A stretch of DNA of 64,000 nucleotides from Caldimonas tepidiphila (GTDB lineage: Bacteria > Pseudomonadota > Gammaproteobacteria > Burkholderiales > Burkholderiaceae_C): contig NZ_QXMG01000010.1 of assembly GCF_003569765.1 (NCBI RefSeq), positions 1-64,000 of the forward strand, read 5' to 3'. The translations under genes were made by a program, and so were the position numbers. Below the pieces are notes generated by a model. It saw nothing but the letters and a program-made list of their open reading frames with translations. It did no database searches and had not been told where the DNA came from. This document shows, one piece after another, positions 7,161-61,623 of the stretch; position 1 is the first letter of the stretch; each line of letters opens with the position of its first letter.

Positions 7161-7167
7161 GCCGGCG

Positions 7168-8229: not shown

Positions 8230-8260
8230 GCCGCCGCCGGGTTCTCCTCCACCCGCCATG

Positions 8261-8286
8261 AAAAACGGCCTCCCGAGGGAGGCCGT
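8261..8286 (-). terminator. intrinsic terminator of the first RhlE gene
   Basis: On the minus strand a nine-base stem (ACGGCCTCC with GGAGGCCGT) and four-base loop is followed directly by five U. It lies 45 bases after the helicase stop and also faces the end of the convergent CoA-transferase gene. Confidence 0.85.
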
Positions 8287-8330
8287 GGTGCTTGCGGGCA
8301 GGCCGGCCCGAGGGCCGGTGCTGCCGGGGA

Positions 8331-9938
<1,608 letters not shown>

Positions 9939-41144: not shown

Positions 41145-41519
41145 TCACAGGCCGCAGGGCGGGACCATCAGCAGCGGCGCCGTCTCCCACACCACGCCCA
41201 CCAGCGCGAGCACGCCGCCGCCGAGCCGCAGCGCCGGGATCACCGGATCGCCCTGCGGCTTGTGCCGGCTGTCGCGCACCGAGCGCGCCAGCATCGCGAT
41301 CATCAGCGCGAGCACCGCGGCGCTGAAGACCAGCAGCGAGAGGCTCACCGCAGGCAGCCCGGCCCAGCGGGCGTCCGACCAGCCGCGCATGCAGCCTGCG
41401 GCCACGACGACGTAGAGCGCGAAGAAGTGCAGCGCCCACAGCAGCAGCGGTGCCGTGGCATGCCAGACGGCGGCACCGAAGCGCCGCGGGGGATCGGGTT
41501 GGGCGGGGCTTGCGGGCAT
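41145..41519 (-). CDS. small membrane protein at the end of the oxidase operon
   Basis: A 124-residue protein with three hydrophobic helices (about residues 20-42, 58-80 and 100-118), starting MPASPAQPDPPRRFG. I do not recognise a family. It begins 11 bases after the CoxA-CoxC stop on the same strand, so it is the last gene of the respiratory operon. By position it could be an assembly or subunit IV-like protein; a convergent CDF gene follows 30 bases away. Confidence 0.65.
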   Translation of the reverse strand: MPASPAQPDPPRRFGAAVWHATAPLLLWALHFFALYVVVAAGCMRGWSDARWAGLPAVSLSLLVFSAAVLALMIAMLARSVRDSRHKPQGDPVIPALRLGGGVLALVGVVWETAPLLMVPPCGL

Positions 41520-41530
41520 CGGGCGCCTCG

Positions 41531-44140
41531 TCAGTCCATCACGAGCGGCAGGAACTGCACCAGGGCGGCGATCACCAGGCCCTGCAGCGTCACGTAGTGC
41601 CACATCATCGCGGTGGCGTCCATCGCCGCGCGGCGGTCGGGTGCGAGCCGTCCGGCGAAGGAGCGCGCGAGCGTGAAGCCCGCCATCATCAGCAGCACCC
41701 CGACGTGGAAGCCCTGGTAGCCGAGCATGCTGGCAATCGTCGCGTCCCAGGCGCGCGCGCGCGGCTCGAGCCCCGCCTGCAGGTGCCCGAGGAGGTCCGC
41801 GCCCCAGGCGAGCGCGACGCAGCCGAACGCCGCCGCGAGCAACAGCTGCAGCAGGCGCTGGCGCCTCGCGCCGCCCGCGTGCACGCTGCGCCGCGCCAGC
41901 GCGGCGAGCAGCGAGCCGGCCAGCAGCAGTCCGGCGGCGGCGAGCGGCCAGCGGGCGGCCGGCAGCGCCGCGCCGGGCGGCGGGCAGACCTCGCTGCGCA
42001 TCGACAGGTGCACGTGCGCGAAGGCCATCGACGCGAAGATCGTCGCGTCCACCAGGAGCAGGATCACCATCGCCCACCAGACATGCGAGCGCCGGCCGCT
42101 GCCGCCCACCGGCAGCCACACGCCGCCCTGCTGCGGCGCCTGGCCCGCGCTCATGCCGGGCGGGACGCGGTCGGCGACGCGCACCAGCGGCGCATGCGGC
42201 GCCGGGTCGCTCTGCCACATCCAGTGCAGCACCGCGGCGATCGCCACCACGCCGCCGACGAAGGCCGGGATCACCAGCTTGACCGTCAGCAGCAGGAAGA
42301 AGGCCGCGGTGCCCGCGGCGGCGATCACCGGTGCCCAGCCGTAGCCGGGCAGCCGCAGCACGTACCAGGGCTGCGCGTCGAGCGGGCTGGTGACGAGCGT
42401 CTCGCGCCCGCCCGAGGTCGTCGGCGGCAGCCAGTGGCGGCCGGCCGCCACCTCCTCGACCAGCGAGGGCCGGCTCCACAGCGGCTCGCGGCTGTCGACC
42501 TGCGGGATGCTGCGCACGCCGTAGTTGCCGCCCTTGAGCCACTCGAGCGTGCCCGCCTGCCAGGGGTTGCCGACCGGCTGGCTGCTGCGCCGCTGCGTGC
42601 GCACGAGGTCGAGGAAGAAGCAGGCGACGCCCGCGGCGAACGTGAAGGCGCCGACGGTCGCGACCGCGTTCCACAGGTTCCAGCCGAGGTCGGCGTCGTA
42701 GGAGTAGACGCGCCGCGGCATGCCCTCCAGCCCGAGGATGTGCATCGGGAAGAAGGCGACGTTGAAGCCGACGAACATCAGCCCGAACACCCAGCGTGCG
42801 AAGCCCTCGGACATCGGCCGGCCCTTGACCAGAGGCATCCAGAAGTACAGCGCCGCGAAGATCGGGAACACCATGCCGCCGATCAGCACGTAGTGCAGGT
42901 GCGCGACGACGAAGTAGCTGTCGTGCACCTGCCAGTCGAAGGGGATCACCGCCACCATCACGCCGGTGAGGCCGCCGAGCACGAAGATGAACAGGAAGCC
43001 GAGGATGAAGAGCGTCGGCGCCTTCATCTGCACCTCGCCGCGCCACAAGGTGGCGATCCAGGCGAAGACCTGGATGCCGCTCGGGATCGCCACCGCGAGG
43101 CTGGCGGCCGACACGAAGGACAGCGCCAGCGGCGACAGCCCGGCCGAGAACATGTGGTGCGCCCACAGCGCGAAGCTGAAGAAGCCGACCGCGACCAGCG
43201 CGACGACCACCGCCCGGTGGCCGACCAGCGGCGTGCGCGCCAGCGCCGGCACCATCATCGACACCAGCCCCGCCGCGGGCAGGAAGATGATGTAGACCTC
43301 CGGGTGGCCGAAGAACCAGAACAGGTGCTGCCACAGCACCGGGTCGCCCCCGCGCTCGGCGAGGAAGAAGGGCCAGTCGAAGGCCCGCTCCATCTCCAGC
43401 AGCATCGTGCCGGCGATCAGCGCCGGGAAGGCGAACACGATCATCACGCCGACCACCAGCATCGCCCAGGCGTAGATCGGCATGCGAGCGAGCGTCATGC
43501 CCGGCGGGCGCGTGAGCAGGATGCCGACGATCAGCTCGATCGCGCCGGCGATGGCCGAGATCTCGATGAAGCCGATGCCCAGCAGCCAGAAGTCGGCGTT
43601 GAGCCCGGGCGAATGCTCCATGCTCGTGAGCGGCGGGTACATGAACCAGCCGCCGTCGGGCGCCACGCCGAAGAAGATCGTCAGGAAGAAGGCCACGGCG
43701 CCGATCGCGTAGGCCCAGAAGGCGTAGGCCGACAGGCGGGGAAACGGCAGGTCGCGCGCGCCGAGCATGCCCGGCAGCAGGTAGACCGCCACCGCCTCCA
43801 CGATCGGCACCGCGAACAGGAACATCATGATCGAGCCGTGCATCGTGAAGACCTGGTTGTAGGTCCCCGCCGACAGCAGCGTGTTCTCGGGCACCGCGAG
43901 CTGCGCGCGGATCGCCAGCGCCAGCAGCCCGGCGAGCACGAACATCAGCATCGCGGTGCCGATGTAGAAGAGGCCGACGATGGTGTTGTTGACCGCCGAG
44001 ACCTTGCGCCACCAGCCCCGGGGCGGCAGCCAGGCGCGCTCGAGCGCCTCCTCCTCGCCGGGCGGGCGCGGCAGGCGGCTCGGCAGCGTGTCGTCGTCGT
44101 CGCGGGCCTCGCGCCCGGCGTGCGGTTCGGGATGCTTCAA
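41531..44140 (-). CDS. ctaD: cytochrome c oxidase subunit I fused to subunit III
   Basis: An 869-residue fusion. Residues about 45-560 are the heme-copper oxidase subunit I: heme a ligand His101 (TMHGSIMMFLF), D-channel Asp130 (ARDLPFPR), His279-Glu281-Tyr283 with the cross-linked Tyr (GHPEVYI), CuB His328/His329 (AHHMF) and heme ligands His414/His416 (HLHYVL). The K-channel lysine position reads Gln357 (IPSGIQVFAW), which is unusual. Residues about 690-869 are the CoxC-type subunit III (five helices). It would reduce oxygen to water and pump protons, taking electrons from CoxB. It lies 13 bases after coxB. Confidence 0.93.
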   Translation of the reverse strand: MKHPEPHAGREARDDDDTLPSRLPRPPGEEEALERAWLPPRGWWRKVSAVNNTIVGLFYIGTAMLMFVLAGLLALAIRAQLAVPENTLLSAGTYNQVFTMHGSIMMFLFAVPIVEAVAVYLLPGMLGARDLPFPRLSAYAFWAYAIGAVAFFLTIFFGVAPDGGWFMYPPLTSMEHSPGLNADFWLLGIGFIEISAIAGAIELIVGILLTRPPGMTLARMPIYAWAMLVVGVMIVFAFPALIAGTMLLEMERAFDWPFFLAERGGDPVLWQHLFWFFGHPEVYIIFLPAAGLVSMMVPALARTPLVGHRAVVVALVAVGFFSFALWAHHMFSAGLSPLALSFVSAASLAVAIPSGIQVFAWIATLWRGEVQMKAPTLFILGFLFIFVLGGLTGVMVAVIPFDWQVHDSYFVVAHLHYVLIGGMVFPIFAALYFWMPLVKGRPMSEGFARWVFGLMFVGFNVAFFPMHILGLEGMPRRVYSYDADLGWNLWNAVATVGAFTFAAGVACFFLDLVRTQRRSSQPVGNPWQAGTLEWLKGGNYGVRSIPQVDSREPLWSRPSLVEEVAAGRHWLPPTTSGGRETLVTSPLDAQPWYVLRLPGYGWAPVIAAAGTAAFFLLLTVKLVIPAFVGGVVAIAAVLHWMWQSDPAPHAPLVRVADRVPPGMSAGQAPQQGGVWLPVGGSGRRSHVWWAMVILLLVDATIFASMAFAHVHLSMRSEVCPPPGAALPAARWPLAAAGLLLAGSLLAALARRSVHAGGARRQRLLQLLLAAAFGCVALAWGADLLGHLQAGLEPRARAWDATIASMLGYQGFHVGVLLMMAGFTLARSFAGRLAPDRRAAMDATAMMWHYVTLQGLVIAALVQFLPLVMD

Positions 44141-44153
44141 GGGCGGCGCTTCC

Positions 44154-45161
44154 TCACTTCAGTTGCGCGAGCCAGGCCGACAGCGCCTGCAGCGTCTGCG
44201 GATCGATCTGCCCGAAGGACGGCATGCGCGCGCCGGGCTTGAGCTCCTGCACGCCGGCGATCCAGCCGGCGAGCGTGCCGGGGTGCGTCGGCAGCAGCCC
44301 GGCGCCGATGTAGAGCCGGCTGCCGACATGCGTGAGATCGGGGCCCAGCCGGGACTCCTCGGCGACGCCGCGCACCGTGTGGCAGGCATTGCAGCGGTGC
44401 TCGAGGAAGGCGCGTCGGCCGGCGGCGAGCACCGGGTCGGCGGCCGGCGCCGCGGGCTGCGCCTGCCGCGCGAACCAGGCCTCGAAGGCCTCGGGCGTCT
44501 CGGCCACGACATGCAGCGCCATGTGCGCGTGCTGCTGGCCGCAGTACTCGGCGCACTTGCCGAGGTAGAGGCCGGGGCGCTCCGCGGTGAAGACGAGGTG
44601 GTTGACGCGGCCCGGCACCAGGTCCATCTTGCCGTTGAGCGAGGGCAGCCAGGCGCTGTGGATCACGTCGGCGGTCTCGAGCGCCAGGCGCACCGGGCGG
44701 CCCGCCGGCACGCGGATCTCGTTGGCCGTGGTGAAGCTGCGGCCGCTCGCCGGGTCGCGGTACTGCACCTCCCACCACCACATGCGGCCGATGACGCTGA
44801 CGACGAGCGCGTCCCCGGGCGGCGGGCGCGTCAGCTCGGCGCTGCGCACGCCGTTGAACACCAGCAGCGCGCTGAGCGTCACGACGGGGAAGACGACGCC
44901 GCCGCCGACCACCCAGCGCCAGGTGTTCACCGGCCGGGCGCCGCGGCGCAGCGACAGCGCGAGCAGCACCATCACGCCGACGAAGATCAGCGTGCCGCCG
45001 ATGAACAGCACCCAGGCGATGTCGGCGATCGCCTCGGCCTGCGGACCGGCCGGCTTCAGCACCGACAGCCAGCCGGGTGGCTGCGCGGCGGCGCGGCAGG
45101 GAAGCGCCGCCGCTGCGGACAGCAGCACGCCGGCGGCTCGGAGCGGATGGGCGGGCCGCAT
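44154..45161 (-). CDS. coxB: cytochrome c oxidase subunit II with fused cytochrome c domain (caa3 type)
   Basis: A 335-residue CoxB. A signal sequence or first helix lies at residues 8-26, then two membrane helices (about 48-72, 84-104). The cupredoxin domain carries the CuA ligands His168, Cys203, Glu205, Cys207, His211 and Met214 (CAEYCGQQHAHM). A C-terminal class I cytochrome c domain binds heme at CNACH (257-261), with a Met ligand probably in ARMPSFGQI. This makes a caa3-type oxidase that can receive electrons from another cytochrome directly. The ATG at 45159-45161 is 2 bases past the upstream stop. Confidence 0.94.
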   Translation of the reverse strand: MRPAHPLRAAGVLLSAAAALPCRAAAQPPGWLSVLKPAGPQAEAIADIAWVLFIGGTLIFVGVMVLLALSLRRGARPVNTWRWVVGGGVVFPVVTLSALLVFNGVRSAELTRPPPGDALVVSVIGRMWWWEVQYRDPASGRSFTTANEIRVPAGRPVRLALETADVIHSAWLPSLNGKMDLVPGRVNHLVFTAERPGLYLGKCAEYCGQQHAHMALHVVAETPEAFEAWFARQAQPAAPAADPVLAAGRRAFLEHRCNACHTVRGVAEESRLGPDLTHVGSRLYIGAGLLPTHPGTLAGWIAGVQELKPGARMPSFGQIDPQTLQALSAWLAQLK

Positions 45162-45163
45162 GT

Positions 45164-46657
45164 TCAGCGCAGCTGCCGCAGGTAGGCCGCCATGTGGCGC
45201 GCGTCCTCCTCGCTCGCGCCCATCGACGGCATCGGGCTGTCCGGCACCAGCGAGTGCGGCGCGACGATCCACTGCACCAGCAGTTCGGGCCGGTTCGGGA
45301 CGTGCCCGGCGATGTAGGCCCGCTTGCCGAACTTCACGAGCGGCGGGCCGACCCGGCCGCGCGCCGCCGGCACGCTGGGGATCTCGTGGCAGCTGCCGCA
45401 CTGGTAGCGTTCCAGCAGCTGCTTGCCGAGCGCGACCCGGCCCGCATCGGGCGGCCGGTCGCCGGCGCTGGCGGCGGTCGCGGTCGCGCCGAGGCCCGCC
45501 AGCGCCATCCACGCGGCGAAGGCCGCGCCGAGCCCGCCGAGCGACAGGCCGCCGATCAGCCAGCGCGGCAGCGGCCCCTGCGGCGGCTGTTCGCCGCGCG
45601 GCAGCGTCACGCTGCCGTGCGCGGGCCGCCCGCCGATCTCGGCCGGGTCGCCGTCGGGCACCGCGGAGCCGCGCAGGTCGCCGCCGGCGAAGCGCAGCGC
45701 GTCCGCCGGCCGCAGCGCCGAGGCATGCCCGCCGAGCAGCAGCGCGGCGCGCCACAGCAGGCTGCCGGCGAGCTCGCCCGCCGCGGCGAGCGCGGAGATC
45801 CACAGCAGCCGCTCCGCGGTGAAGAGCTGCGCGAGGTGCAGCGCCACCGGCAGCAGCAGGCCGGCGCCCAGCACGCCGAGCACGAACAGCGCGCCGGTGC
45901 CGCCGTGCACCAGCGGCGACAGCAGCTGCGCGGCGCCCAGGCGGACCAGCCACGCCAGCACGAAGATCCACGCCACGCCGGTGGCGAGCAGCGCGAACTT
46001 CTCCAGCGCCGCGTCGAAGGTCGAGCCGCCGAAGGCGAGGCCCGCGAGCGTGAGCGCCGACGCGCCGGCGGCGAGCGAGAAGGCGGCGAAGCTGCCGGCC
46101 AGCAGCGCCGGCGAGCGCGCCCACAGCGGCGTGCTGGTCGCCGACAGCAGCGGGGCGGTGTAGGTCGCCATCAGCAGCCCGACCGCGGCCGCCGGCAGCT
46201 GCACCAGCAGCTCCAGCCCCCGGGGCGCCACGAACCAGCGCAGGTCGCCCAGCAACTGCAGCAGCACCGTCAGCGCGGTCAGCCCGCTGAAGGCCATCAG
46301 CACCCAGCTGCCGATCGACATCGGCGAGGTGCGGCGGAAGATGCGCAGCATGTAGAGGAAGCGCCGCGGCGTCTTCAGGTCCGCGATCAGCAGCACCGCG
46401 CCGATCGCGCAGGCGGCCAGCGCCCCCCAGCGCGCCGGGCGCAGCACCACGGCGGCGGCCTCGCGGTCCGGGGCGATCATCAGCACGAGCGCCCCGAGGA
46501 TCTGCACCGCGCCCGCGATGCCCGCGAGCCAGATGTACACGGCCACCATCCACTTCCAGTGGCTGGGCTTGAGCGCGGGCAGCCCGTAGTAGCCGGCCGC
46601 CGCGGGTGGCCGCTCGGTGCGGCCGTGGCGGTGCAGGAGGCCTCGCGTCTCAGCCAT
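45164..46657 (-). CDS. NrfD/PsrC-type membrane subunit fused to C-terminal cytochrome c
   Basis: A 497-residue protein. Residues about 30-375 hold eight or nine hydrophobic helices with the NrfD pattern: HWKWMVAVYIWLAGIAGA near the start, IADLKTPRRFLYMLRIF and a TYTAPLLSATSTPLWA segment. Such proteins pass electrons between a ferredoxin subunit and membrane quinone. The C-terminus is a class I cytochrome c domain with heme at CGSCH (420-424) and a likely Met ligand in DSPMPSM. A fusion like this could carry electrons straight to a periplasmic cytochrome. The start overlaps the end of the FeS gene by 8 bases. Electron route is inference. Confidence 0.85.
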   Translation of the reverse strand: MAETRGLLHRHGRTERPPAAAGYYGLPALKPSHWKWMVAVYIWLAGIAGAVQILGALVLMIAPDREAAAVVLRPARWGALAACAIGAVLLIADLKTPRRFLYMLRIFRRTSPMSIGSWVLMAFSGLTALTVLLQLLGDLRWFVAPRGLELLVQLPAAAVGLLMATYTAPLLSATSTPLWARSPALLAGSFAAFSLAAGASALTLAGLAFGGSTFDAALEKFALLATGVAWIFVLAWLVRLGAAQLLSPLVHGGTGALFVLGVLGAGLLLPVALHLAQLFTAERLLWISALAAAGELAGSLLWRAALLLGGHASALRPADALRFAGGDLRGSAVPDGDPAEIGGRPAHGSVTLPRGEQPPQGPLPRWLIGGLSLGGLGAAFAAWMALAGLGATATAASAGDRPPDAGRVALGKQLLERYQCGSCHEIPSVPAARGRVGPPLVKFGKRAYIAGHVPNRPELLVQWIVAPHSLVPDSPMPSMGASEEDARHMAAYLRQLR

Positions 46658-47591
46658 AGATCAGCACTCCGAGCGCCGCGACGGTCAGCGCCGACGCGGT
46701 GGCCAGCCCCGCCACGAGCCCCGGCGCGATGCGGCGCGACGCGCGCGTCGGGTGCTCGGGCAGGTTGTAGGTCCCGGGCGGCGCGGTGAGCAGGAAGAAG
46801 GCGTTGAGCCCGGCGAGGTCCCGGCCGCTGTCGCCGGTGGCCGGGCTCTGCGCCTGCGGGTCGGCCGAGGGCGCGCCGTAGAGGTAGGCGCTGTCCACGC
46901 CGGCCTCGCGCAGGTGCTCGACGCGGCGCTGGGCGCGCTCGTGCAGGGTGCCGAGCTCGCCGAAGACGATCGAGTCGGTCGGGCAGGCCTTCGAGCAGGC
47001 GGGCTCCATGCCGGAACTGAGCCGGTCGTGGCACAGCGTGCACTTGTGCGCCTTGCCGTCGTCCTCGCTCAGGTCCACCACGCCGAAGGGGCAGGCCGGC
47101 ACGCAGTAGCCGCAGCCGTTGCAGATGTCGGCCTGCACCACCACGGTGTCGAACTCGCTGCGCCAGATCGCGCCGGTCGGGCAGGCCTCCAGGCAGGGCG
47201 CGTTCGCACAGTGCTTGCAGACGTCGCTCATCATCAGCCAGCGGTTCTGGAAGTGCGGCATCGCCGGCGCCGCGCCGCCGTCGGCCTTCGGCTCGTGGCC
47301 GATGTGCTCGACGAACATCACGTGGCGCCAGGTGCTGGCCGAGAGCTGCTGCGTGTTGTCGTAGCTCAGCCCGGAGAGGTGATTGGGCTCGGCCGGCAGC
47401 GCGTTCCAGGTCTTGCAGGCCACCTCGCAGGCCTTGCAGCCGATGCACAGCGTCGTGTCGGTGAAGAAGCCGTAGCGACGACCCGGGCGGATCGTCACGT
47501 CCGCGGTCAGGCGCGACTCGTCCGCGAGCGGACTGCTCATCATCGAGTCGTCGAGCGGCAGCTGAGGCGTGGCGTGTCGGTGGTCGGGCAT
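46650..47591 (-). CDS. four-cluster 4Fe-4S ferredoxin subunit with C-terminal membrane anchor
   Basis: A 313-residue electron-transfer subunit similar to FdnH/FdoH of formate dehydrogenase. Four cysteine groups for 4Fe-4S clusters are visible: CIGCKACEVACK, CKHCANAPCLEACP, CNGCGYCVPACP and CTLCHDRLSSG...ACSKACP. The last 27 residues form a membrane helix (IAPGLVAGLATASALTVAALGVLIYG), as in FdnH. No Tat signal is present. The gene starts an operon with NrfD-cytochrome c, coxB and coxA-coxC. Its natural partner is a molybdopterin subunit; the only one in the window is the FdhA at 58077. Confidence 0.9.
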   Translation of the reverse strand: MPDHRHATPQLPLDDSMMSSPLADESRLTADVTIRPGRRYGFFTDTTLCIGCKACEVACKTWNALPAEPNHLSGLSYDNTQQLSASTWRHVMFVEHIGHEPKADGGAAPAMPHFQNRWLMMSDVCKHCANAPCLEACPTGAIWRSEFDTVVVQADICNGCGYCVPACPFGVVDLSEDDGKAHKCTLCHDRLSSGMEPACSKACPTDSIVFGELGTLHERAQRRVEHLREAGVDSAYLYGAPSADPQAQSPATGDSGRDLAGLNAFFLLTAPPGTYNLPEHPTRASRRIAPGLVAGLATASALTVAALGVLIYG

Positions 47592-47850
47592 CGGCGAGCT
47601 CCCGTGGCAGGCGGGGCAGTTCTCGTGCCGCCTCCGTAGCCCTGCGGCCCCCTTCTCCAGGGGGCGCGTCCCCGACGGTGACGGGAATGCGCGCAGCGCT
47701 GTTCGGGAGGCGGGCCCGGGCGGGCACGCTGCTCGCTGCGCCATGTCGGGGGCCCGGCGCGAGGGGAGGGGCCGGCGACGAATCCACTCCTGCCGGCGGC
47801 CCCCTCCGTTGCGGGCGATTCCGTGCCTGTCGGGGAGGACAAGGGAGCGC
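47592..47850. promoter_or_regulatory. divergent promoter region between the respiratory operon and the GGDEF-EAL gene
   Basis: 259 bases with no gene supported. A hairpin GCCCCCT/AGGGGGC with a five-base loop lies at 47647-47665. No clear consensus promoter; the GGAGGACAAGGGAG site just before 47851 is the ribosome site of the plus-strand gene. Confidence 0.45.
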
Positions 47851-50538: not shown

Positions 50539-50706
50539 GGCCATCCCGCCACCCGTGTTTTTTCCGGAACCGCAGGCCCTCCACGCAGGAGGCCGCGCGC
50601 CGAAGTGCCCGCCCTGTGGAGCGGACGCCGGGCTCACCCTTGCCCCTGCGACCCCGCACCTTCCCCTGGGGGAACCCGCGCCCGGCGCGATGCCGGCGCG
50701 TTCACC

Positions 50707-51369: not shown

Positions 51370-51466
51370 CGGCGTCCCCTCCCATCCCTTCGCGTGGATC
51401 CGGGTGCGATTCGACCCGCTTCCCGAGGGCGGCTCAAGCGACTTTCCCGGCGTGCTTGCATGCGCC

Positions 51467-52390: not shown

Positions 52391-52507
52391 TCCGATTCCT
52401 CATGCGAACGATGCAGGAAGATTGCTTGAGCCGGTCCCCGTCGTCAATTCGAATCGGGGCTGCGGGCCGCCTTCCGGACGGCCGGCGACAGGCGAAGGGA
52501 GACGGCG
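52391..52507. promoter_or_regulatory. LysR-MFS divergent regulatory region
   Basis: 117 bases between divergent starts, the usual place for a LysR binding site. I could not pick one T-N11-A motif with confidence. A GAAGGGAGACG ribosome site sits before ATG 52508. Confidence 0.45.
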
Positions 52508-53755: not shown

Positions 53756-53901
53756 AGGGCCTGCGCTCCGCGGCGGGCCGGGTCGCGCTCGGGCTGGCCG
53801 CCGCCGTGCCTGCCGCGCTCGGGCTCGCGCTGGCGTTCTCGGCCTGGCTGCGTCCGGGCCATGTGCTGGACTGGCTCGCGGTGCTGGCCTTCTGCGGCTG
53901 A
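53752..53901 (+). CDS. 49-residue single-pass membrane protein, coupled to the MFS gene
   Basis: A tiny protein, MKGLRSAAGRVALGLAAAV followed by PAALGLALAFSAWLRPGHVL and a hydrophobic end DWLAVLAFCG. Two hydrophobic stretches suggest a membrane peptide. The four-base ATGA overlap with the MFS gene supports translation. No family recognised; it could be a transporter accessory peptide. Confidence 0.55.
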   Translation: MKGLRSAAGRVALGLAAAVPAALGLALAFSAWLRPGHVLDWLAVLAFCG

Positions 53902-53962
53902 GGCGGGGCGGGGCCGGGCCGGTTGCGGAGCGCCCGGCGCAGCCGGCAGCCCGATCCCGGCC

Positions 53963-55156
53963 TCAATCCGCCTTGAAAGGATCGGCGTGGCGCGGATTGG
54001 AGAGGAACTCGTGGTCGGTCAGGGTTCTGAGGAAGGCGATGATGTCCGCCTGCTCCTGCTCGTTCAGGTCGATGCGGCTGATCAGCGGGCTCTTCAGGGG
54101 GTTGGCGCGACCATCGCCGGCATGCGGGCCGCTGGTGATCTGGCGCCCGCCCGCCGCATAGGTCCGCAGCACCTCCTCCAGCGTGGCCACCGAGCCGTCG
54201 TGCATGTAGGGCGCCGTCACTTCCACGTTGCGCAGGCTGGGAGCGCGGAAGCGGCCCATGTCGCCGGCCTGCGCAGTGAGCTCGAACAGGCCGCGGTTGG
54301 GCTCGGGATAGGCACCCGTGCCGCCGAGGTTGTAGAGCCCGGTGTTGTGGAACGGCGTCGGGACGAGGCGGCTGGCGGAGTGAAGGATCTGGTTGTTGAA
54401 GTTGAAGCTGCCGTGGCAGTGGAAGCACTCGGCCTTTTCCCCGAAGAAGAGCCGCATGCCGCGCTGCTCCGCGTCGCTCAGCGTCGTCTCGCCGACCAGC
54501 CACCGGTCGTAGCGGCTGTTGCCGGAGATCAGCGTGCGCTGGAAGGCCGCGATGGCCTTGATCACGTTGCCCCAGTGCAGCGGCCGGGCCTCGCCGGGGA
54601 AGGCCGCGGCGAAGCGCTCGGGATAACGCGAGGGCAGCGTGTCCTCGCGCAGGCGCTGCAGCACGGCTTCCTTGTTGCCGTCGTTGACGCCCATCTCCAC
54701 CGGGTGCTCGCCGAACAGCGGGGTCTCCATCTGGCGCTCCAGCGTCACGAGCGAGGGGTTGGCCCAGGTGAGGGTGGCGTTGTAGGCCACGTTCGAGAGG
54801 TGCTGGGAGCTGCGCGGGTGCAGCTCGCCCGTCGCTCCCAGGGAGCGAGCGAGGCCGTCGCTGAAGGCCTTCTCCTGGACATGGCAGCCGGCGCAGGCCA
54901 GCCGCCCGTTGCCCGACAGGCGCTTGTCGTAGAAGAGGTAGCGGCCGAGCTCGACCTTCTGCGCCGACATCGGGTTGTCCGCCGGCACCCGGGGCTCCGG
55001 GAACCTCGCCGGCAGCGACCAGGTCCAGGGCTCGACCGCGGTCGGGGGCTCGCCCGCTGCGCTGCCGCCGCCCCCTGCTCCGCCACCGCAGGCAGCAAGG
55101 CCGGCCACCACGGCGGCGAGCGCGGCGCCCGTGGCGATCCGGGATGCGGCCCGCAT
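53963..55156 (-). CDS. mbnH: MbnH-family di-heme enzyme (cytochrome c peroxidase-like)
   Basis: A 397-residue di-heme protein of the bacterial cytochrome c peroxidase superfamily, MbnH branch. The N-terminus is a lipoprotein or signal sequence (LAAVVAGLAACGGG, lipobox LAAC). Heme motifs are CAGCH (88-92) and CFHCH (244-248). Conserved KVELGRYLFYDKRLSGNGRLAC and VEVTAPYMHDGSVATLEEVLRTY are present. MbnH proteins form a high-valent di-heme state and convert a Trp of the partner MbnP to kynurenine. The stop of the upstream mbnP overlaps this start by one base (TGATG), so the two are translationally coupled. Confidence 0.92.
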   Translation of the reverse strand: MRAASRIATGAALAAVVAGLAACGGGAGGGGSAAGEPPTAVEPWTWSLPARFPEPRVPADNPMSAQKVELGRYLFYDKRLSGNGRLACAGCHVQEKAFSDGLARSLGATGELHPRSSQHLSNVAYNATLTWANPSLVTLERQMETPLFGEHPVEMGVNDGNKEAVLQRLREDTLPSRYPERFAAAFPGEARPLHWGNVIKAIAAFQRTLISGNSRYDRWLVGETTLSDAEQRGMRLFFGEKAECFHCHGSFNFNNQILHSASRLVPTPFHNTGLYNLGGTGAYPEPNRGLFELTAQAGDMGRFRAPSLRNVEVTAPYMHDGSVATLEEVLRTYAAGGRQITSGPHAGDGRANPLKSPLISRIDLNEQEQADIIAFLRTLTDHEFLSNPRHADPFKAD

Positions 55157-56094
55157 CACTTCGCCACGGCCCTGAACAGGGTCTGGGCCGCGCCGCCCGC
55201 GATCGGCCGCCCGGTGCCGCTGCCGTCGGGCTTCCAGTCGATGGCGAGCGCCTCGAACACGCGCAGGCACTCCGGGTCCGTGCCGCCGGACATGCAGCCC
55301 GGCCCGCCGCCCCGGTTGACCGTGATGTCGGTCCCCGCGAGCAGCGCCTGCAGATCGATCGCGATCCTCTGCGTGGCGGGATCGAAGTTCGCCAGCGTGA
55401 ACTCCATGCGGTTCGGCGCCGCGCACGACACCGTCTCGCCGCTGGCCGGGTTGCCACTGCAGCCCGTCGAGCCGAGGTGGAAGAGGAATGAGCTCGTCGT
55501 CCAGGGGCGGGACGTGCCGGCCGGCTCGGTGAGCTCGATGTTGGCGAACTTGCGGCCGGACTGCCAGCTCCAGGCCATCCCCTGGAGGTCGAGCGGCCGG
55601 GGGGCCATGGCGTAGTCGCTGTGGTTCAGCGCGAAGGGCACGCCCATCGTCAGCTTCACCCCGGTGTAGTCGCCTGCCGGCACGGTGCCCCGGATCGTGG
55701 CGTTGGTCGCGGCGGTGCCCTCGCTGCACGCGCCGCTTCCGTCCTCCAGGTCGATCAGGGTCAGGCTGTCGCTGCCCGCGGTAAGGTTCCAGTCGTCGTT
55801 GGCGCCCAGCGCGAGGGCCACTTCGCTGCCATCGGACCTGAGCAGCCTGACGTTCGAGATGTAGAAGCGCAGGTCCTGGAGCTGCGCGTCGACGCCGCCG
55901 CTGCCCAGCCCGCTCACCAGGGTGCCGCAGCTCACCGGCGCGCTGCCGGCCCGGGCGACGAACTCCAGGGTGACGCCCTGGGCAAGGCCCTGGCCGGCCT
56001 CCCTCTCACCGCCGCCTCCACCGCAGCCGGCAAGGGCGGCGACGGTCGCGAGTGCCAGGGTCGGGAGCAGGCGGAGCTGGAATTCTTTCTTCAT
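55156..56094 (-). CDS. mbnP: MbnP-family copper-binding protein (four-Cys 'metallo-mystery' partner)
   Basis: A 312-residue periplasmic lipoprotein (lipobox LAGC, Cys24). The mature part has the MbnP layout: cysteines at 56, 123, 212, 224, 267 and 276, a QLQDLRFYISNVRLL core near residue 71, GVKLTMGVPFALNHSDY with His158, a MAWSWQSGRKF segment near 173 and FLFHLGSTGC with His206. In characterised members a Trp becomes kynurenine and forms part of a Cu(I) site; which of the tryptophans here (102, 175, 177, 198, 287) is modified cannot be told. No methanobactin precursor or MbnB/C genes are nearby. It is followed by mbnH. Confidence 0.9.
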   Translation of the reverse strand: MKKEFQLRLLPTLALATVAALAGCGGGGGEREAGQGLAQGVTLEFVARAGSAPVSCGTLVSGLGSGGVDAQLQDLRFYISNVRLLRSDGSEVALALGANDDWNLTAGSDSLTLIDLEDGSGACSEGTAATNATIRGTVPAGDYTGVKLTMGVPFALNHSDYAMAPRPLDLQGMAWSWQSGRKFANIELTEPAGTSRPWTTSSFLFHLGSTGCSGNPASGETVSCAAPNRMEFTLANFDPATQRIAIDLQALLAGTDITVNRGGGPGCMSGGTDPECLRVFEALAIDWKPDGSGTGRPIAGGAAQTLFRAVAK

Positions 56095-56794
56095 GGGAGG
56101 TTTCTTGTCCTGGTGGGTAGGCATCGAGGATGGGCAAGGGGCGCCGGTTCGACAGCTTGCGCCGGGCGCAAGGCTCGTTCGCCCGTGCGGCGTCCCGTCG
56201 CGCAAGCTGCGCCCGGTCGCGCCGGGCGAGACGTCAGGGCATGGGGTCCGGGGGGCTCCCGCCATCCGGGGGCGGGCGGCGCCGGACAAGGCGAGACAGA
56301 TGCGAAGCTCCTGCGTTCGCGCCGCAGTGGAGTGGACGCTGCTGCGGCCGATCGGGCGCCGAATGAATGGAGAGGATCGCTCGACAGTACATCGAGGAAA
56401 GCGGCGACGGTAATCGGAATCCGCTCATGATTCCGTCTTCTCCAAGCATGGCAGGCATCGGATGAGCGTCCGATGCCTTATTACGGGAATATCGTGCAAC
56501 TCCATGATTGATTCGCCTTGGCCTTGCTCGGAAACCTGCCTCGGCTGGAAGCGGGTTCCGGACGCCAATCAAAGCTGAAGGATCCCGACGTTACTTGAAC
56601 GCGAAAGACGGATAGACCCCTCGTCCTGGGGTGCTCACCAATTCCGGGGGTAAGCGCCTCTCATTTGCTGCAGCGGGAAATTCCTTCGGGGCAGAGGATT
56701 CGAGGGGCGAGAATCTATACTGGGACGGCTTGGCGTGTCACGGCGAGTCTCGTGTGTGACGGAGCCGGCATTCAACCACTTCAGAATACGTCCC
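56095..56794. other. 700-base gene-free stretch with several hairpins
   Basis: Between the divergent mbnP and DUF1028 genes I see no supported gene. It is clearly more AT-rich in its second half. It contains a perfect ten-base stem, AGGCATCGGA with TCCGATGCCT (56453-56478), preceded by a smaller CGGAAT/ATTCCG hairpin near 56415-56435. The first ~100 bases should hold the mbnP promoter. A small RNA or a decayed gene is possible. Confidence 0.5.
56453..56478. terminator. strong orphan hairpin
   Basis: Perfect ten-base stem with a six-base loop (TGAGCG). It is followed on the plus strand by TATTA and is not adjacent to the end of any gene I can call. It may be the terminator of an unseen small transcript on either strand. 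Confidence 0.4.
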
Positions 56795-57454
56795 GTGACC
56801 TTTTCGATAGTTGCCCGGTGCGCGCGCACCAACCAGGTTGGCGTCGCGGCAGCGACTGCGGTCCAGGCGGTCGGCAAGCTCGCATGCCATGCCATCGCCC
56901 ATGTCGGCGCCATTGCGTCGCAGGCGCTGACCAACCCCTACCTTGCCTACGACGGCCTGCGCCTGCTGGAGCGTGGCGCCTCGGCTGAAGAAGCCTTGCG
57001 GCGTGTGCTGGCCACCGACCCCGATGCGGACAAGCGGCAAGTCGGCGTGGTCGACATCCAAGGACGCACCGCGGCCTGGACCGGTTCCGAAGCCATTCCC
57101 TGGGCAGGCCACCTCGCGGGGCGAAACTGCTCTGTTCAAGGTAATCGACTGGCCGGGCCGCAGGTGCTCGAAAGGGCGCTGGCATCGATGCACGGTACGG
57201 AACACCTCGATCTTGCGGAGCGACTGACACTCGCCCTGCTGGAAGGTGATTCAGCGGGCGGTGATCTCAAGGGCGAGCGTTCGGTCAACGTGCTGGTCTT
57301 TTCGTCCGAGGAATACGCGCTGTGCGATATCCGGATCGACGACCACGAGGCCCCCCTGGATGAACTGCGTCGATTGTTCGCGGTGTACCAGACCAGGATA
57401 TTGCCGATCGTGCGCACCCTTCCGAAGCGGTCCGATATCCCGCGGCCGGACTGA
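56795..57454 (+). CDS. DUF1028 family (Ntn-hydrolase-like) protein
   Basis: A 219-residue DUF1028 protein, predicted to have the N-terminal-nucleophile hydrolase fold. Family features are TFSIVARCARTNQVGVAAATAVQAVG at the start, GAIASQALTNPYLAYDGLRLLERGASAEEAL near residue 45 and DIQGRTAAWTGSEAIPWAGHLAGRNCSVQGN near residue 90. I use GTG 56795 as the start since homologues begin with TFSIVARD. An earlier in-frame GTG at 56735 is less likely. Codon use is slightly less GC-rich than its neighbours, suggesting transfer. The substrate is unknown. Confidence 0.85.
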   Translation: MTFSIVARCARTNQVGVAAATAVQAVGKLACHAIAHVGAIASQALTNPYLAYDGLRLLERGASAEEALRRVLATDPDADKRQVGVVDIQGRTAAWTGSEAIPWAGHLAGRNCSVQGNRLAGPQVLERALASMHGTEHLDLAERLTLALLEGDSAGGDLKGERSVNVLVFSSEEYALCDIRIDDHEAPLDELRRLFAVYQTRILPIVRTLPKRSDIPRPD

Positions 57455-57709
57455 GCGGCAGCAGGCGCCGCGCATGCCGGCGCAACGCCGGCACAGGCCC
57501 GGACCGGCGCAGCCCCGGGCCTATCCGGCGATATTGCCGAGTGGCAAGTCCGCATATCGCTTGAACGACAGGCGCGTGCCCCAGGCGGCCCCTCCCGCCA
57601 AGGCACGCCGTCCTCACTGCACCCCGAGCCCGGCCGTGCGAGCGGCACGCACGCGGGCAGCCGTTCCGGGGAGGACGCATCGCGGCTTTCCGGAACGCCG
57701 CCCCGCGCC

Positions 57710-58015
57710 TCAGCCGGGCCGCATCGCGCCGCAGTTCCAGCACTGCTCGAACGGCCCCTCCACCGCCTCGCCGCAGCCGCGGCAGAGCCAGCGCCGCTGC
57801 GGCAGGTGGCGCAGTTCGTGCAGCAGCGCGGTGGCGCGGTCGAACTCGGCGTCGTCGAGCACCCAGACCTCGGGCTGCGCCTGGTCGGGCGGGATCTCGC
57901 CGGCGATGCCGCTGGCATAGAAGCGCTGGACCACCGCCTCGATGCCCGCCTGCGTCAGCATGTCGGCCCAGAGCGCGGCGATGGCGATGTTCGGGGCATG
58001 GATCAGACGCTTCAT
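57710..58015 (-). CDS. DUF2007 protein with C-terminal zinc ribbon
   Basis: A 101-residue protein. The N-terminal DUF2007 (putative signal-transducing, PII-like) domain is at about 1-70 (IHAPNIAIAALWADMLTQAGIEAVVQRFYASG). A zinc ribbon-like C-terminus has two CxxC pairs, CRGC and CWNCG. It starts about 60 bases after the end of fdhA on the same strand and may be in its transcript. Function unknown. Confidence 0.82.
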   Translation of the reverse strand: MKRLIHAPNIAIAALWADMLTQAGIEAVVQRFYASGIAGEIPPDQAQPEVWVLDDAEFDRATALLHELRHLPQRRWLCRGCGEAVEGPFEQCWNCGAMRPG

Positions 58016-58076
58016 CGTGGGCCCATGGTGCCACGCCGGGCCGCCGGCCGCGACGCGGGCGCCACGTGCCCGGGCT

Positions 58077-61000
58077 TCAACCCCGCGCCAGCCGCCCCTT
58101 GTCGATGCGGCAGGTCAGCGCCTTGCCCTCGTGGATGCTGGTGTTGGGGTCCATCACGATGCTCGTCAGCGTGTTGGCGATGTCGCCGGTGGCGTAGCCC
58201 TTGTAGCCGAAGTGCCAGGGCATGCCGATCTGGAACACGCGGCGGCCGTCGATCGTGAAGGGCGTCAGCCGCTGCGTGACGAGCGCGCGGGTCTCGATCG
58301 CGCCGCGCGCGGTCGAGATCGTCACCCAGTCGAGCGAGCGCACGCCCAGCTCCTCGGCGAGCTCGGGCGGGATCTCGCAGAAGCCCTCGGGCTGCAGCTC
58401 GGCCAGCAGCGGCGCGCCGCGCGTGGGCGCCGCGCCGCAGTGGTGCTCGGTGAGCCGGTAGGTGGTCAGCACGTGCGGGTGCTGCGGGTCCGGACTCGGG
58501 TGGTAGGGGTTGTCGGGGCGCTCGCGGGTGCCGGCGGCGGGGTTGTGGCGCTGGCCGTACAGCAGGTTGCGCACCGGCGACTCCATCGGCTCGTAATGCG
58601 TCGGCAGCGGCGCGTCCTTCAGCCCCGAGGGCGCGAACAGCGCCGCCTTGCCGTCGGCCATCATCACGAAGGGATGGTGGCCGGCATGCGCGGCCATGCC
58701 GCGCGGCTTCTTGTCGTCGGCGGGCGTGTAGCCGGGCTCCTTGCTCTCGTCGAAGTCGATCTCGTCGGTGCTCTCCCACTGCTGCGCCTCGGCGTTCCAC
58801 CACACCAGCTTCTTGCGCTCGCTCCAGGGCTTCCCTTGCGGGTCGGCCGAGGCGCGGTTGTACATCGTGCGGCGGTTGCCCGGCCATGCGAAAGCCCAGC
58901 CGAGGTGCGTGCCCGGGCCGCCCGGCGGGTCGGCCTGGCGGGAGCGCGCGCGGTTGTCGCGCTCGCCGGGGAAGATGCCGCTGTAGGCCCAGCAGCCGCA
59001 GGCGGTCGAGCCGTCGTCGGCCAGCTCCTTGAAGCCGGCGAGCTGCCGGCGGTCGGCGACCGTCCAGCCGTTGATCTCGCGCAGCACGTCCTCGGCGTCG
59101 GGCTCGCCGCGCTCGTCGGCCTCGCGGTAGTCCCAGGTCAGTGCCTGCAGAGCGCGGTCCTCGGGGCGGGTGCTGCCCGCATACAGCGCCTTCAGCCGCT
59201 TTGCCAGGTGGTGCATGAACCACAGCTCCGAGCGGTTGTCGCCCGGCGCGTCGACCACGTGGTCGTGCCACTGCACGAGGCGGTGCTCGTTGGTGAAGGT
59301 GCCGGCCTTCTCGCCCGCGAGCGAGGCCGGCATCAGGAAGACCTCGGTCCTGATCCGGTCGGGCGTTAGGCCCTCGGCCCGCACCGCCGGGCTGTCCTTC
59401 CAGAAGCTCGCGCTCTCGGTCTCGGAGGTGTCGCGCACGACGAGCCAGTCCAGCCGCGCCAGCCCCTGCTGCACCAGGGCCGAGTTGCTGCCGCCCATCA
59501 CGACGTTCTGCCCGAGCAGGAAGAGGCCGCGGATCTGCCCGTCCTTCATCGCCAGCGTCATCGGCAGCTGCGAGTGGTCGCCGACGTTGCGCGGCAGCCA
59601 GTCGTAGCCCCAGCCGTTGGCCGGGCTGCCCGCCTCGCCGTACCAGGCGCGCATCAGGCTGACGATGTACTTCGGGAAGTGGTGCCACCAGCCGGTGTGC
59701 GTCGTCTCGGCGCGGATGTAGGACTCGAGCGTCTCGTGCGGCTTGCCGGCCTTGGGGCTTGGCAGGTAGCCGGGCAGCATGTCGTAGAGCGTCGGGATGT
59801 CGGTGCTGCCCTGGATCGAGCAGTGCCCGCGCAGCGCGAGGATGCCGCCGCCGGGCCGGCCCGTGTTGCCGAGCAGCGCCTGCAGGATGCCGGCGGCGCG
59901 GATCATCTGCACGCCATTGGTGTGGTGCGTCCAGGCCACCGCGTAGCAGATCGCGCCGGTGCGCTCGGGGCCGGAGTTCTCGGCGAGCGTGCGGGCCACC
60001 TGCACGAGCGTCGCGGCCGGGCAGCCGGTGATGCGCTCGACCGTCTCGGGCGTGTAGCGCGCGTAGTGGCGCCGCATGATCTGGTAGACGCAGCGCGGGT
60101 GCTGCAGCGTGCGGTCCTGCGCGACGGGGAAGTCGAGCTGCTCGTCGTCGGGCGCGAGCGGCCCCGAGGTCTCGACGTGCTTCTCGGCGAGCGGCGGCTT
60201 CACGAGGCCGCTCTCGTAGCGCCAGGACTCGTGCGTGTAGCCCTTCATCTCCTCGTCCCAGCCGGAGAAGAAGCCGTCGCCGTCCTCGGCGTCGACGTAC
60301 TCGTCGGTGATGATGGTCGCGAGGTTGGTGTAGTTCAGCGCGTAGTCCCTGAACCACAGGTCGTGCTCGAGGATGTGGTGGATCAGCCCGCCGAGGAAGG
60401 CGATGTCGGTGCCGGAGCGGATCGGCGCGTGCAGGTTCGACAGGGCGGAGGTGCGGGTGTAGCGCGGATCGACATGGATGATCTTCGCGCCGCGCTCCTT
60501 GGCCTGCATCACGAAGCGGAAGCTGATCGGGTGGTTCTCGGCCATGTTCGAGCCCATCACCATCACCCAGTCCGAGTTCGCGAGGTCCCACTGCGCGAGG
60601 GTCGAGGCGCCGCGGCCGTAGGTGGCGCCGAGGCTCGGCACCGAGGAGCTGTGGCAGATGCGCGCCTGGTTCTCGATCCAGACCATGCCCAGGCCGCCGC
60701 CGAACAGCTTCTTGATGAGGTAGTTCTCCTCGTTGTCGAGCGTGGCGCCGCCGAGCGAGGCGAGCGCGAGCGTGTGGTTCAGCGGCGTGCCGTCCTCGCC
60801 GCGCGCGACGAAGGTCTCGTCGCGCACCTGCCTGGTGAGCTGCGCGATGCGGTCCATGGCCCAGTCGAGCGGCTTGCGCTCCCAGCGGTCGCTGTAGGGC
60901 GCGCGGTACATCACGTGGTGGATGCGCTCGGGGCTCGTCATCGTGTCGAAGGTCGCCGCGCCCTTGGGGCAGAGCGTGCCCTGGTTGATCGGGCTGCGCG

Positions 61001-61292
61001 GGTCGCCCTCGATGTGGATCACCCGGCCCTCTCGCGCGTAGACGAGCTGCGCGCAGCCCACCGCGCAGAAGGGGCAGATGCTGGTGCCGACGCGGTCGGC
61101 GGAATCCAGCCGCGCCTGCGCGAGCTCCGACTCCCGGCTGCGCGCGGCCTCGCGCAGCGAGTCGGCGCCGCGCATCTGGCGCGGCAGCGACCACTCGCGC
61201 CAGAACTCGGCCAGCAGCGCCGGGATGCGCTTGAGCGGGTTGCCGTTGACCGGCTCGGCGCGCGAGCCGCGGTCCTCCAGTCGCGCGCTCAT
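58077..61292 (-). CDS. fdhA: formate dehydrogenase catalytic subunit (molybdopterin, Cys type)
   Basis: A 1071-residue protein of the DMSO-reductase family, closest to FdnG/FdoG. The 4Fe-4S site uses Cys73, Cys76, Cys80 and Cys108 (CPFCAVGC, then TLCPKG). The residue that binds molybdenum is Cys213, where E. coli has selenocysteine (NQARICHSS), next to the conserved His214. Two further features resemble FdnG: DSWVMVMGSN-like NSDWVMVMGSNMAENHP and the C-terminal domain with ALTCRIDKG. There is no twin-arginine signal; the first 65 residues form a charged helical lead. A cytosolic or inner-face location is thus likely. Its ferredoxin partner is probably 46650-47591. Confidence 0.92.
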   Translation of the reverse strand: MSARLEDRGSRAEPVNGNPLKRIPALLAEFWREWSLPRQMRGADSLREAARSRESELAQARLDSADRVGTSICPFCAVGCAQLVYAREGRVIHIEGDPRSPINQGTLCPKGAATFDTMTSPERIHHVMYRAPYSDRWERKPLDWAMDRIAQLTRQVRDETFVARGEDGTPLNHTLALASLGGATLDNEENYLIKKLFGGGLGMVWIENQARICHSSSVPSLGATYGRGASTLAQWDLANSDWVMVMGSNMAENHPISFRFVMQAKERGAKIIHVDPRYTRTSALSNLHAPIRSGTDIAFLGGLIHHILEHDLWFRDYALNYTNLATIITDEYVDAEDGDGFFSGWDEEMKGYTHESWRYESGLVKPPLAEKHVETSGPLAPDDEQLDFPVAQDRTLQHPRCVYQIMRRHYARYTPETVERITGCPAATLVQVARTLAENSGPERTGAICYAVAWTHHTNGVQMIRAAGILQALLGNTGRPGGGILALRGHCSIQGSTDIPTLYDMLPGYLPSPKAGKPHETLESYIRAETTHTGWWHHFPKYIVSLMRAWYGEAGSPANGWGYDWLPRNVGDHSQLPMTLAMKDGQIRGLFLLGQNVVMGGSNSALVQQGLARLDWLVVRDTSETESASFWKDSPAVRAEGLTPDRIRTEVFLMPASLAGEKAGTFTNEHRLVQWHDHVVDAPGDNRSELWFMHHLAKRLKALYAGSTRPEDRALQALTWDYREADERGEPDAEDVLREINGWTVADRRQLAGFKELADDGSTACGCWAYSGIFPGERDNRARSRQADPPGGPGTHLGWAFAWPGNRRTMYNRASADPQGKPWSERKKLVWWNAEAQQWESTDEIDFDESKEPGYTPADDKKPRGMAAHAGHHPFVMMADGKAALFAPSGLKDAPLPTHYEPMESPVRNLLYGQRHNPAAGTRERPDNPYHPSPDPQHPHVLTTYRLTEHHCGAAPTRGAPLLAELQPEGFCEIPPELAEELGVRSLDWVTISTARGAIETRALVTQRLTPFTIDGRRVFQIGMPWHFGYKGYATGDIANTLTSIVMDPNTSIHEGKALTCRIDKGRLARG

Positions 61293-61368
61293 TGGGGCAC
61301 CCTCGCGCTGCGCGCGGTCCCTCCGCGAGGGACAGAGCGCTTCCTTCGGAGCGGCCGTGCGGAAGCGC

Positions 61369-61623
61369 TCATGCCCGGTCTCCTTGCGTGTCGCGCAGGC
61401 GCCAGAGCCCGCTGACCACCTGCGCCCGGGTCGTCGGCGAGGGATGCAGCCGCACGCGCACCGGCGCCGCCTCGTCCATCAGCCGCCGCAGGTCGCCGGG
61501 CCCGGCCGGCACCGAGGGCGCGAGCGTGCACTCCACGCGCTCGCCGCCCTCCTTGACCAGCTGGAATCGGTGCTCCTGCACCCGCACGATGGTGCCGTGT
61601 TCGTGGCGTTCGGATCTGCTCAT
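61369..61623 (-). CDS. small protein upstream of fdhA
   Basis: An 84-residue hydrophilic protein, MSRSERHEHGTIVRVQEHRFQLV, then CTLAPSVPAGPGDLRRLMDEAAPVRVRL near the middle. I do not recognise a family; the strand-rich start could be a small beta-barrel. Same strand as fdhA, 76 bases before it, so probably the first gene of its transcript. The ATG at 61621-61623 has CGAGG upstream. The frame remains open to 61740. Confidence 0.6.
   Translation of the reverse strand: MSRSERHEHGTIVRVQEHRFQLVKEGGERVECTLAPSVPAGPGDLRRLMDEAAPVRVRLHPSPTTRAQVVSGLWRLRDTQGDRA

Follow-up and report, generated by a model that had tools for sequence, protein, structure and literature searches.

The window analysed here is a stretch of 64,000 nucleotides from Caldimonas tepidiphila (assembly GCF_003569765.1, contig NZ_QXMG01000010.1, positions 1 to 64,000). 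On its minus strand, genes for the iron-sulfur (FeS) and NrfD membrane subunits of a formate dehydrogenase (FDH) form one cluster with the genes of a caa3 oxidase (41145-47591), and the predicted catalytic subunit of the FDH, FdhA, is encoded 10.5 kb upstream on the same strand. The reading that we favour, with some reserve, is that a formate:quinone oxidoreductase of the Fqo type and the caa3 oxidase would constitute a formate-respiration module, in which the FDH genes were inserted into an oxidase cassette, NrfD was fused to the cassette's own cytochrome c, and electrons would travel via quinone and the cytochrome bc1 complex. Formate oxidation and oxygen use are probably linked in this organism, with electrons most likely passing through the ordinary quinone pool.

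The five genes of the cluster are FeS, NrfD-cytochrome c, CoxB-cytochrome c, CoxA-CoxC and D, and neighbouring genes either overlap or are separated by at most 13 bases. FeS (46650-47591; candidate starts at 47591 or 47543, stop at 46650) is an FdnH/FqoB-like four-cluster ferredoxin with a hydrophobic membrane helix at its C-terminus (Pfam Fer4_11), and aligns at 64-68% with the FDH beta subunits of two Fqo-type loci. Its reading frame is overlapped by that of an FqoC-like NrfD with eight transmembrane helices and a fused C-terminal cytochrome c (45164-46657; Pfam NrfD E = 1.7e-17 and Cytochrom_C E = 9e-5, both over cut-off; AlphaFold and Foldseek agree). CoxB (44154-45161), which starts 2 bases past the NrfD stop, combines oxidase subunit II, including the CuA motif CAEYCGQQHAHM, with a C-terminal cytochrome c (COX2 E = 6e-21, Cytochrom_C E = 8e-8; TIGR02866 over cut-off). 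The 869-aa CoxA-CoxC fusion of subunits I and III (41531-44140) starts 13 bases past CoxB; its Pfam report consists of COX1 alone (E = 5e-140), TIGR02891 scores 673.1 bits against a cut-off of 670.75, and residues 676-857 align at 29% with an annotated subunit III from Methylocystis. The CuA ligands of CoxB and the subunit I motifs of CoxA were also recognized by eye. The terminal gene, D (41145-41519), encodes a small membrane protein with no Pfam match. Divergent from fdhA (58077-61292, minus strand) are two plus-strand genes: cytA (61846-62397), a membrane-anchored cytochrome c (Cytochrome_CBB3 E = 5e-15), and cytB (62382-62804), a cytochrome c with a lipobox-like start. Family profiles and coordinates confirm the gene set and places described in an earlier note on this DNA, from the overlapping FeS and NrfD-cytochrome c frames through CoxB-cytochrome c and CoxA-CoxC to the distant FdhA and the two divergent cytochromes c.

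To place the FDH subunits, we scanned GTDB contigs with an alignment of FeS, which returned 463 relatives, and retained the best 80 for locus counts (compared loci carry L-numbers, and contigs of the 5.47-Mb source genome C-numbers). FdhA is present in 78 of these 80 FeS loci, on the same strand as FeS in 56 and on the opposite strand in 22, the exceptions being L097 and L099; for NrfD the count is 79 at a threshold of E up to 1e-3 and 78 at 1e-4. Because 78 of the 80 related loci hold the same type of FdhA, its role as the catalytic partner of this FeS-NrfD pair is well supported by gene neighbourhood. In addition, the FdhA and FeS of the window are about equally similar (64-65%) to those of contiguous trios in Indioceanicola and Chelatococcus, which strengthens an assignment that the earlier note had offered as inference. 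Tree path lengths from the window correlate between FdhA and FeS (rho 0.82 over 80 rows), a value that is indicative only, as the rows are related; the nearest rows differ (L089 for FdhA, L082 for FeS).

The trio fits the tentatively named, uncharacterised formate:quinone oxidoreductase FqoABC (PMC8076601), as judged from its predicted proteins. FdhA is FdnG-like, scoring 1433 bits with NF041513 (cut-off 1400) and 946 bits with TIGR01553 (cut-off 814) and aligning with 1kqf_A. For FeS the top match is 1kqf_B, and the best family match is TIGR01582, yet below cut-off at 155 bits. NrfD has an eight-helix AlphaFold core, with pLDDT (model confidence) above 90, and counterparts of the FqoC quinone-site residues (Y41, D93, S111/S114, Y166, T167; assigned by motif and spacing) are conserved at its N-terminal face. 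The three genes are not adjacent in the window, where fdhA stands 10.5 kb from FeS-nrfD; they share one locus in 78 of the 80 relatives. By record title, the 80 loci are mostly from Alphaproteobacteria, with about one quarter Chloroflexota-like and three from Burkholderiales. Calisto and Pereira (2021, PMC8076601) list FqoC in Actinobacteria, Chlorobi, Crenarchaeota, Chloroflexi and Deltaproteobacteria. When the best few candidates per genome were scored, an FqoB-like FeS was found in 1 of 399 genomes of the source family at E up to 1e-50 (the source genome itself), in 6 of 399 of the order (its own included) and in 2 of 152 of the class of genome G548; by this measure an FDH of this kind is rare in the family, order and class.

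The oxidase cassette, in contrast to the FDH, is shared with relatives. In five loci from the same genus or family (L067-L070 and L182), cytB-cytA diverge from a lipoprotein cytochrome c gene followed by coxB-cytochrome c and coxAC, with CoxAC 63-66% identical to that of the window. The cytA-adjacent gene of these loci matches cytB at 53-62%, relatives of cytA are divergent from the caa3 cassette in the same-family loci, and D is matched in L067-L069 (35-38% to the post-coxAC gene in L067, L068, L069 and L075). No FDH genes were matched in the five cassettes. Two other family loci, L077 and L078, have more distant CoxAC proteins (48% and 51%) and another layout. Inheritance of the FDH set together with the cassette in the family is rejected on the ground that FeS was found in 1 of 399 family genomes at the threshold above, with the best few candidates scored per genome. 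The FDH set was probably acquired horizontally, and would have landed in a resident caa3 cassette between cytA and the lipoprotein cytochrome c gene.

Further afield, related caa3 cassettes on plasmids of Sinorhizobium, Methylocystis and Dinoroseobacter (L035, L036 and L037; CoxAC 39-51% identical to the window's) adjoin pyrroloquinoline quinone (PQQ)-dependent methanol/ethanol dehydrogenases or a GMC oxidoreductase, enzymes that could feed cytochrome c directly.

The point of contact between the two modules is the NrfD-cytochrome c fusion, the sole match to Pfam NrfD (PF03916) in the source genome, in which one DmsC-type anchor occurs elsewhere, on C13. The GC content of third codon positions is continuous across the junction (0.88-1.0), so the fusion reads as one frame and is not a frameshift artefact. 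Its cytochrome domain (45167-45442, with CGSCH and PMPSMG) is 44-58% identical to the separate cytochrome c that precedes coxB in 10 family and order relatives, a kinship that, at the level of sequence, shows it to be akin to the cassette's own cytochrome. In all 10 of these loci the separate cytochrome has a lipobox-like cysteine 24-38 residues ahead of CxxCH (a loose pattern); the window fusion has LAGL 30 residues ahead of CGSCH, with leucine in place of the lipobox cysteine. From hydropathy and from comparison with these 10 lipobox-bearing relatives, we interpret the ninth hydrophobic helix of the fusion (TM9, 45488-45562, low pLDDT) as the cytochrome's former lipoprotein signal peptide. 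NrfD would thus have been joined to this signal peptide, and loss of the lipobox cysteine would keep the joint intact.

No counterpart of this fusion was found. None of the 79 NrfD reading frames of the relatives contains CxxCH, those beside caa3 genes included; the longest is 404 aa, and in seven cases a contig end truncates the frame. Searches with the whole fusion in 300 genomes of the order, 149 related ones and 398 of the phylum (these sets overlap, and few candidates were scored per genome) and in plasmids gave no second protein that matches both of its parts. Among the open-access papers searched, judged by title and abstract opening, none was on point for a gene cluster of FDH and caa3 or a fusion of NrfD with a cytochrome.

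That TM9 sits where the separate cytochromes have their lipoprotein signal peptides would also suit another, rather unlikely, interpretation: that signal peptidase I cleaves the product, as a polyprotein, behind TM9 (at ATATAASA, before GD) and frees an ordinary cytochrome c for CoxB, so that the fusion would serve translational coupling only. The cytochrome b/c1 polyprotein FbcH of Bradyrhizobium offers a parallel, and the loss of the lipobox cysteine with a possible AxA site just after it is in keeping with such processing. The hydrophobic stretch of about 25 residues is, however, long for a cleaved signal.

The membrane topology of the FDH bears on the choice of acceptor. We sought a twin-arginine translocation (Tat) signal at the FdhA N-terminus, by hydrophobicity and by the twin-arginine (RR) motif, and found none. 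For the most hydrophobic 15-residue stretch of the first 45, the window FdhA scores 0.33, and none of the 57 relatives whose N-terminus is visible exceeds 1.08. The two RR-bearing FDH alpha genes of the source genome reach 1.45 and 1.69 within their first 70 residues. The weakly hydrophobic N-terminus of FdhA speaks against its export by Tat. For the alpha subunit of an FDH alpha-beta-NrfD cluster in Rhodococcus equi, SignalP called no signal peptide, but DeepTMHMM did call one (PMC13332983). If FdhA has no Tat signal, FeS should be cytoplasmic and formate should be oxidized in the cytoplasm. Within FdhA, the position of selenocysteine in 1kqf_A is taken by cysteine (codon TGC at 60656-60654). 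TGA stands at the active site in 59 of 71 related loci in which the site was located (L080-L159; four of the readings, with CGG, CGC or CTC, probably come from misplaced sites, another cannot be read, and nine further loci gave none), and the FdhA family looks, from its codons, to consist mostly of selenoproteins.

NrfD itself points the same way. Its top Foldseek match is PsrC (2vpw_C), in which both termini lie on the face that also holds the quinone site and the FeS partner (PMC8076601). The lysine and arginine count of the window NrfD (16 versus 4) agrees with a cytoplasmic N-terminus. Because TM9 takes the chain across the membrane once more, the haem domain would lie on the opposite face from FeS. 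In this model the FeS clusters and the haem should be on opposite membrane faces with no cofactor between them, as NrfD subunits are described as lacking redox cofactors and interacting with quinone (PMC8076601), which makes quinone the expected acceptor.

These features bear directly on the route that the earlier note had proposed, in which formate electrons pass from FdhA through FeS, the NrfD-borne cytochrome c and the CoxB cytochrome c to aa3 without a bc1 complex, as in a formate:cytochrome c oxidoreductase analogous to alternative complex III. Such a direct wire would profit from the covalent bond between NrfD and the cytochrome that stands before CoxB in relatives, from the dehydrogenases adjoining the plasmid-borne cassettes, and from the recurrence of FDH-caa3 neighbourhoods described below. 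It is nonetheless improbable, and our analysis does not support it: FdhA lacks a Tat signal, which places FeS and a periplasmic haem on opposite faces; the PsrC termini share one face, and the window protein has one extra helix before its haem; NrfD subunits carry no redox cofactor of their own, and the quinone-site residues are present; the relatives' NrfD proteins, even beside caa3, lack CxxCH; and the source genome has bc1 genes, with the Rieske, cytochrome b and cytochrome c1 genes adjacent on C52. Another way around bc1, in which NrfD-cytochrome c would act as a one-polypeptide bridge from the cytoplasmic FDH to the periplasmic haem on CoxB, with a bound quinone passing electrons between two sites in a bc1-independent formate oxidase, seems to us likewise improbable.

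On our preferred reading of a quinone- and bc1-dependent module, FdhA, with its cysteine-ligated molybdenum, would oxidize formate in the cytoplasm, and the FeS clusters would carry the electrons to a quinone bound by NrfD at its site on the cytoplasmic side. The resulting quinol would reduce bc1. From bc1, electrons would reach the cytochromes of the periplasm (cytA, cytB or the one borne by NrfD) and then the cytochrome c of CoxB, CuA and aa3. The fused cytochrome might tether the FDH to the oxidase or at least fix their stoichiometry, and perhaps the two enzymes, with bc1 between them, form one supercomplex.

We next asked whether FDH and caa3 genes are linked in other genomes. A CoxA-type gene matching CoxAC is present in 8 of the 80 FDH loci (L084, L092, L101, L124, L125, L134, L136 and L143), and CoxA was detected weakly in L135 with another CoxA query. 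Other respiratory queries were matched rarely or never in the same 80 loci (cytochrome b, Rieske, NuoH, NuoD and NorZ, 0 each; NuoL, 1; CcoN, 2; NuoG, 2, weakly). In L095, coxB lies at the edge, and coxAC is at the matching place of a contig of equal length in that genome. Contiguous arrangements occur in Skermanella aerolata (L101; fdhA-FeS-nrfD-coxB::c-coxAC-small membrane protein-ctaG-cytochrome c, with coxB::c a fusion to cytochrome c) and in Crenalkalicoccus (L143; fdhA-FeS-nrfD-formate channel-ctaG-coxB-coxAC-D-cytB), with the same core through coxAC in Falsiroseomonas (L125). In Siccirubricoccus (L136), coxAC, ctaG and cytB lie upstream of fdhA. A formate channel gene (PF01226) follows nrfD in L125, L136 and L143. 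The synteny without the 10-kb insert that the earlier note had suggested looking for therefore exists as a contiguous FDH-caa3 order in L101, L125 and L143, though none of these has the NrfD fusion. Conversely, cytA and cytB stand near FDH genes in Noviherbaspirillum (L082, with selB between) and in the metagenome-assembled genome L094, with no caa3 genes in either locus, and cytA does so in L128. The FDH, caa3 and cytA/cytB modules are thus found paired in every combination in these loci, and the window holds all three.

By chance, 0.53 FDH loci with CoxA would be expected across the 49 genomes used, compared with 7 seen (nominal P = 1.4e-6); this estimate ignores relatedness and is biased upward, since 50 of the 80 loci entered it, every linked one among them, and scaling to all 80 gives about 0.9 expected versus 8. 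Linkage of FDH and caa3 genes in other proteobacteria is, on these gene orders, supported. This excess and the intact reading frame over the fusion argue against the view that the adjacency and the fusion are accidents of genome rearrangement with no functional link, as does the recurrence of the linkage in other families, where one orientation prevails and three loci include a formate channel. The 10.5-kb gap between fdhA and FeS and the fact that most examined relatives of either module lack the other would fit such an accident, which we regard as very unlikely.

Several observations weigh against the module that we propose. FdhA and FeS are now far apart in the window; CoxA did not turn up in 72 of the 80 FDH loci, of which many lie on short contigs, and in two of the eight CoxA-bearing loci (L084 and L134) the oxidase is more distant and encoded on the opposite strand. 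The model is poor for TM9 and the cytochrome (pLDDT mostly below 60). A sequence comparison of the NrfD alignment with solved structures gave no match at E up to 0.01, so that kinship with PsrC and ActC rests on fold. Across the family, lysine and arginine counts with tails included agree with the proposed orientation in 38 of 55 rows, whereas the inter-helix loops alone agree in 2 of 55 (means 4.7 versus 9.8) and run contrary to it. Among 78 relatives, 9 have a Tat-like RR motif at the start of FdhA, though without a strongly hydrophobic stretch. Finally, the genome has two more FDH-like sets, each with a gamma subunit of its own, as well as another alpha subunit on C30, and the organism therefore need not rely on this locus to oxidize formate.

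These other sets were found among eight PF00384 places in the source genome. C12 and C19 carry RR-bearing FDH-like alpha genes (TIGR01591 below cut-off) adjoined by FDH gamma genes, with an FDH3 beta gene also on C12; the molybdenum enzyme on C13 has its own FeS-DmsC gene, and the C20 match is NuoG. C30 passes TIGR01591, and C36 and C52 are NasA/Dms-like, below cut-offs. That FeS-NrfD serves a different molybdenum enzyme is unlikely, given that those on C12, C19 and C13 have their own partners and C20 is NuoG; for C30, C36 and C52 no partners are shown. On C13 (L063:5122-7035 and 7066-9270, minus strand), a single protein of 637 aa, which contains one CxxCH motif, combines the FeS domain with the DmsC-type anchor.

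The window can be compared with several known systems. It resembles FqoABC in its FdnG/FdnH-like peripheral subunits, eight-helix NrfD and conserved quinone-site residues (PMC8076601), and differs in the ninth helix and cytochrome c of NrfD and in having fdhA split off by 10 kb. With the type a COX operon it shares CoxB fused to cytochrome c, the CoxA-CoxC fusion, accessory cytochromes and the small D protein; type a-I is described next to alternative complex III and type a-II as often containing PQQ dehydrogenases (PMC4013037), whereas the donor module in the window is an FDH. The parallel to alternative complex III beside caa3 that the earlier note had drawn holds for the NrfD-type membrane subunit and the haem c next to caa3, and Foldseek finds alternative complex III C chains. 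It fails for the remainder: where that complex has a pentahaem ActA, ActB and two NrfD-like subunits, the window cluster has no ActA, ActD or ActE, the genome has no second PF03916 protein, the catalytic side is predicted to be cytoplasmic and the donor would be formate. The alpha and beta subunits are homologous to those of E. coli FDH-N (FdnGHI; 1kqf), which has a Tat-exported alpha and a cytochrome b gamma; here NrfD replaces the cytochrome b FdnI, there is no Tat signal, and cysteine replaces selenocysteine. The sulfite dehydrogenase SoeABC likewise has a predicted cytoplasmic molybdenum/FeS module with an inverted NrfD, but acts on another substrate and is a trio without cytochrome or oxidase as listed in PMC8076601.

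The 10.5 kb that would later have come to separate fdhA from FeS (47592-58076) encode, by Pfam, a CHASE-GGDEF-EAL protein, DsbA-like, LysR and MFS proteins, a MauG-like di-haem protein, DUF1028 and DUF2007. When part of this insert was searched in 30 genomes, the longest matches covered the LysR-MFS part in two same-genus genomes, which does not date the insertion. The MFS transporter (52508-53755, plus strand) resembles models of lactate and oxalate/formate transporters, with scores below their cut-offs, and a role in formate supply is possible on that basis. A MauG-like di-haem peroxidase family protein is encoded at 53963-55729 (minus strand). The DUF2007 gene (57710-58015, minus strand) lies just downstream of fdhA on the same strand and is possibly co-transcribed with it. 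A scan for promoters and terminators gave nothing close to FeS, and a tRNA scan of the window was empty. About 8 kb past the end of the window, a second CoxA-CoxC-type gene (C8, about 71.4-74.9 kb; L060:11427-14942), 46% to the window's, adjoins a UPF0093 gene.

Together, these findings would connect one specific terminal oxidase with a family of formate:quinone oxidoreductases that is uncharacterised, and the fusion would be a naturally occurring covalent bond that joins a subunit of a respiratory dehydrogenase to the cytochrome of the oxidase itself. Through it, a dehydrogenase-oxidase supercomplex becomes directly testable, as do the membrane side and the acceptor of NrfD-type formate dehydrogenases. 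Furthermore, the range of neighbouring PQQ, GMC and formate dehydrogenases suggests that a caa3 oxidase of this type may act as a plug-in terminal module for several electron donors.

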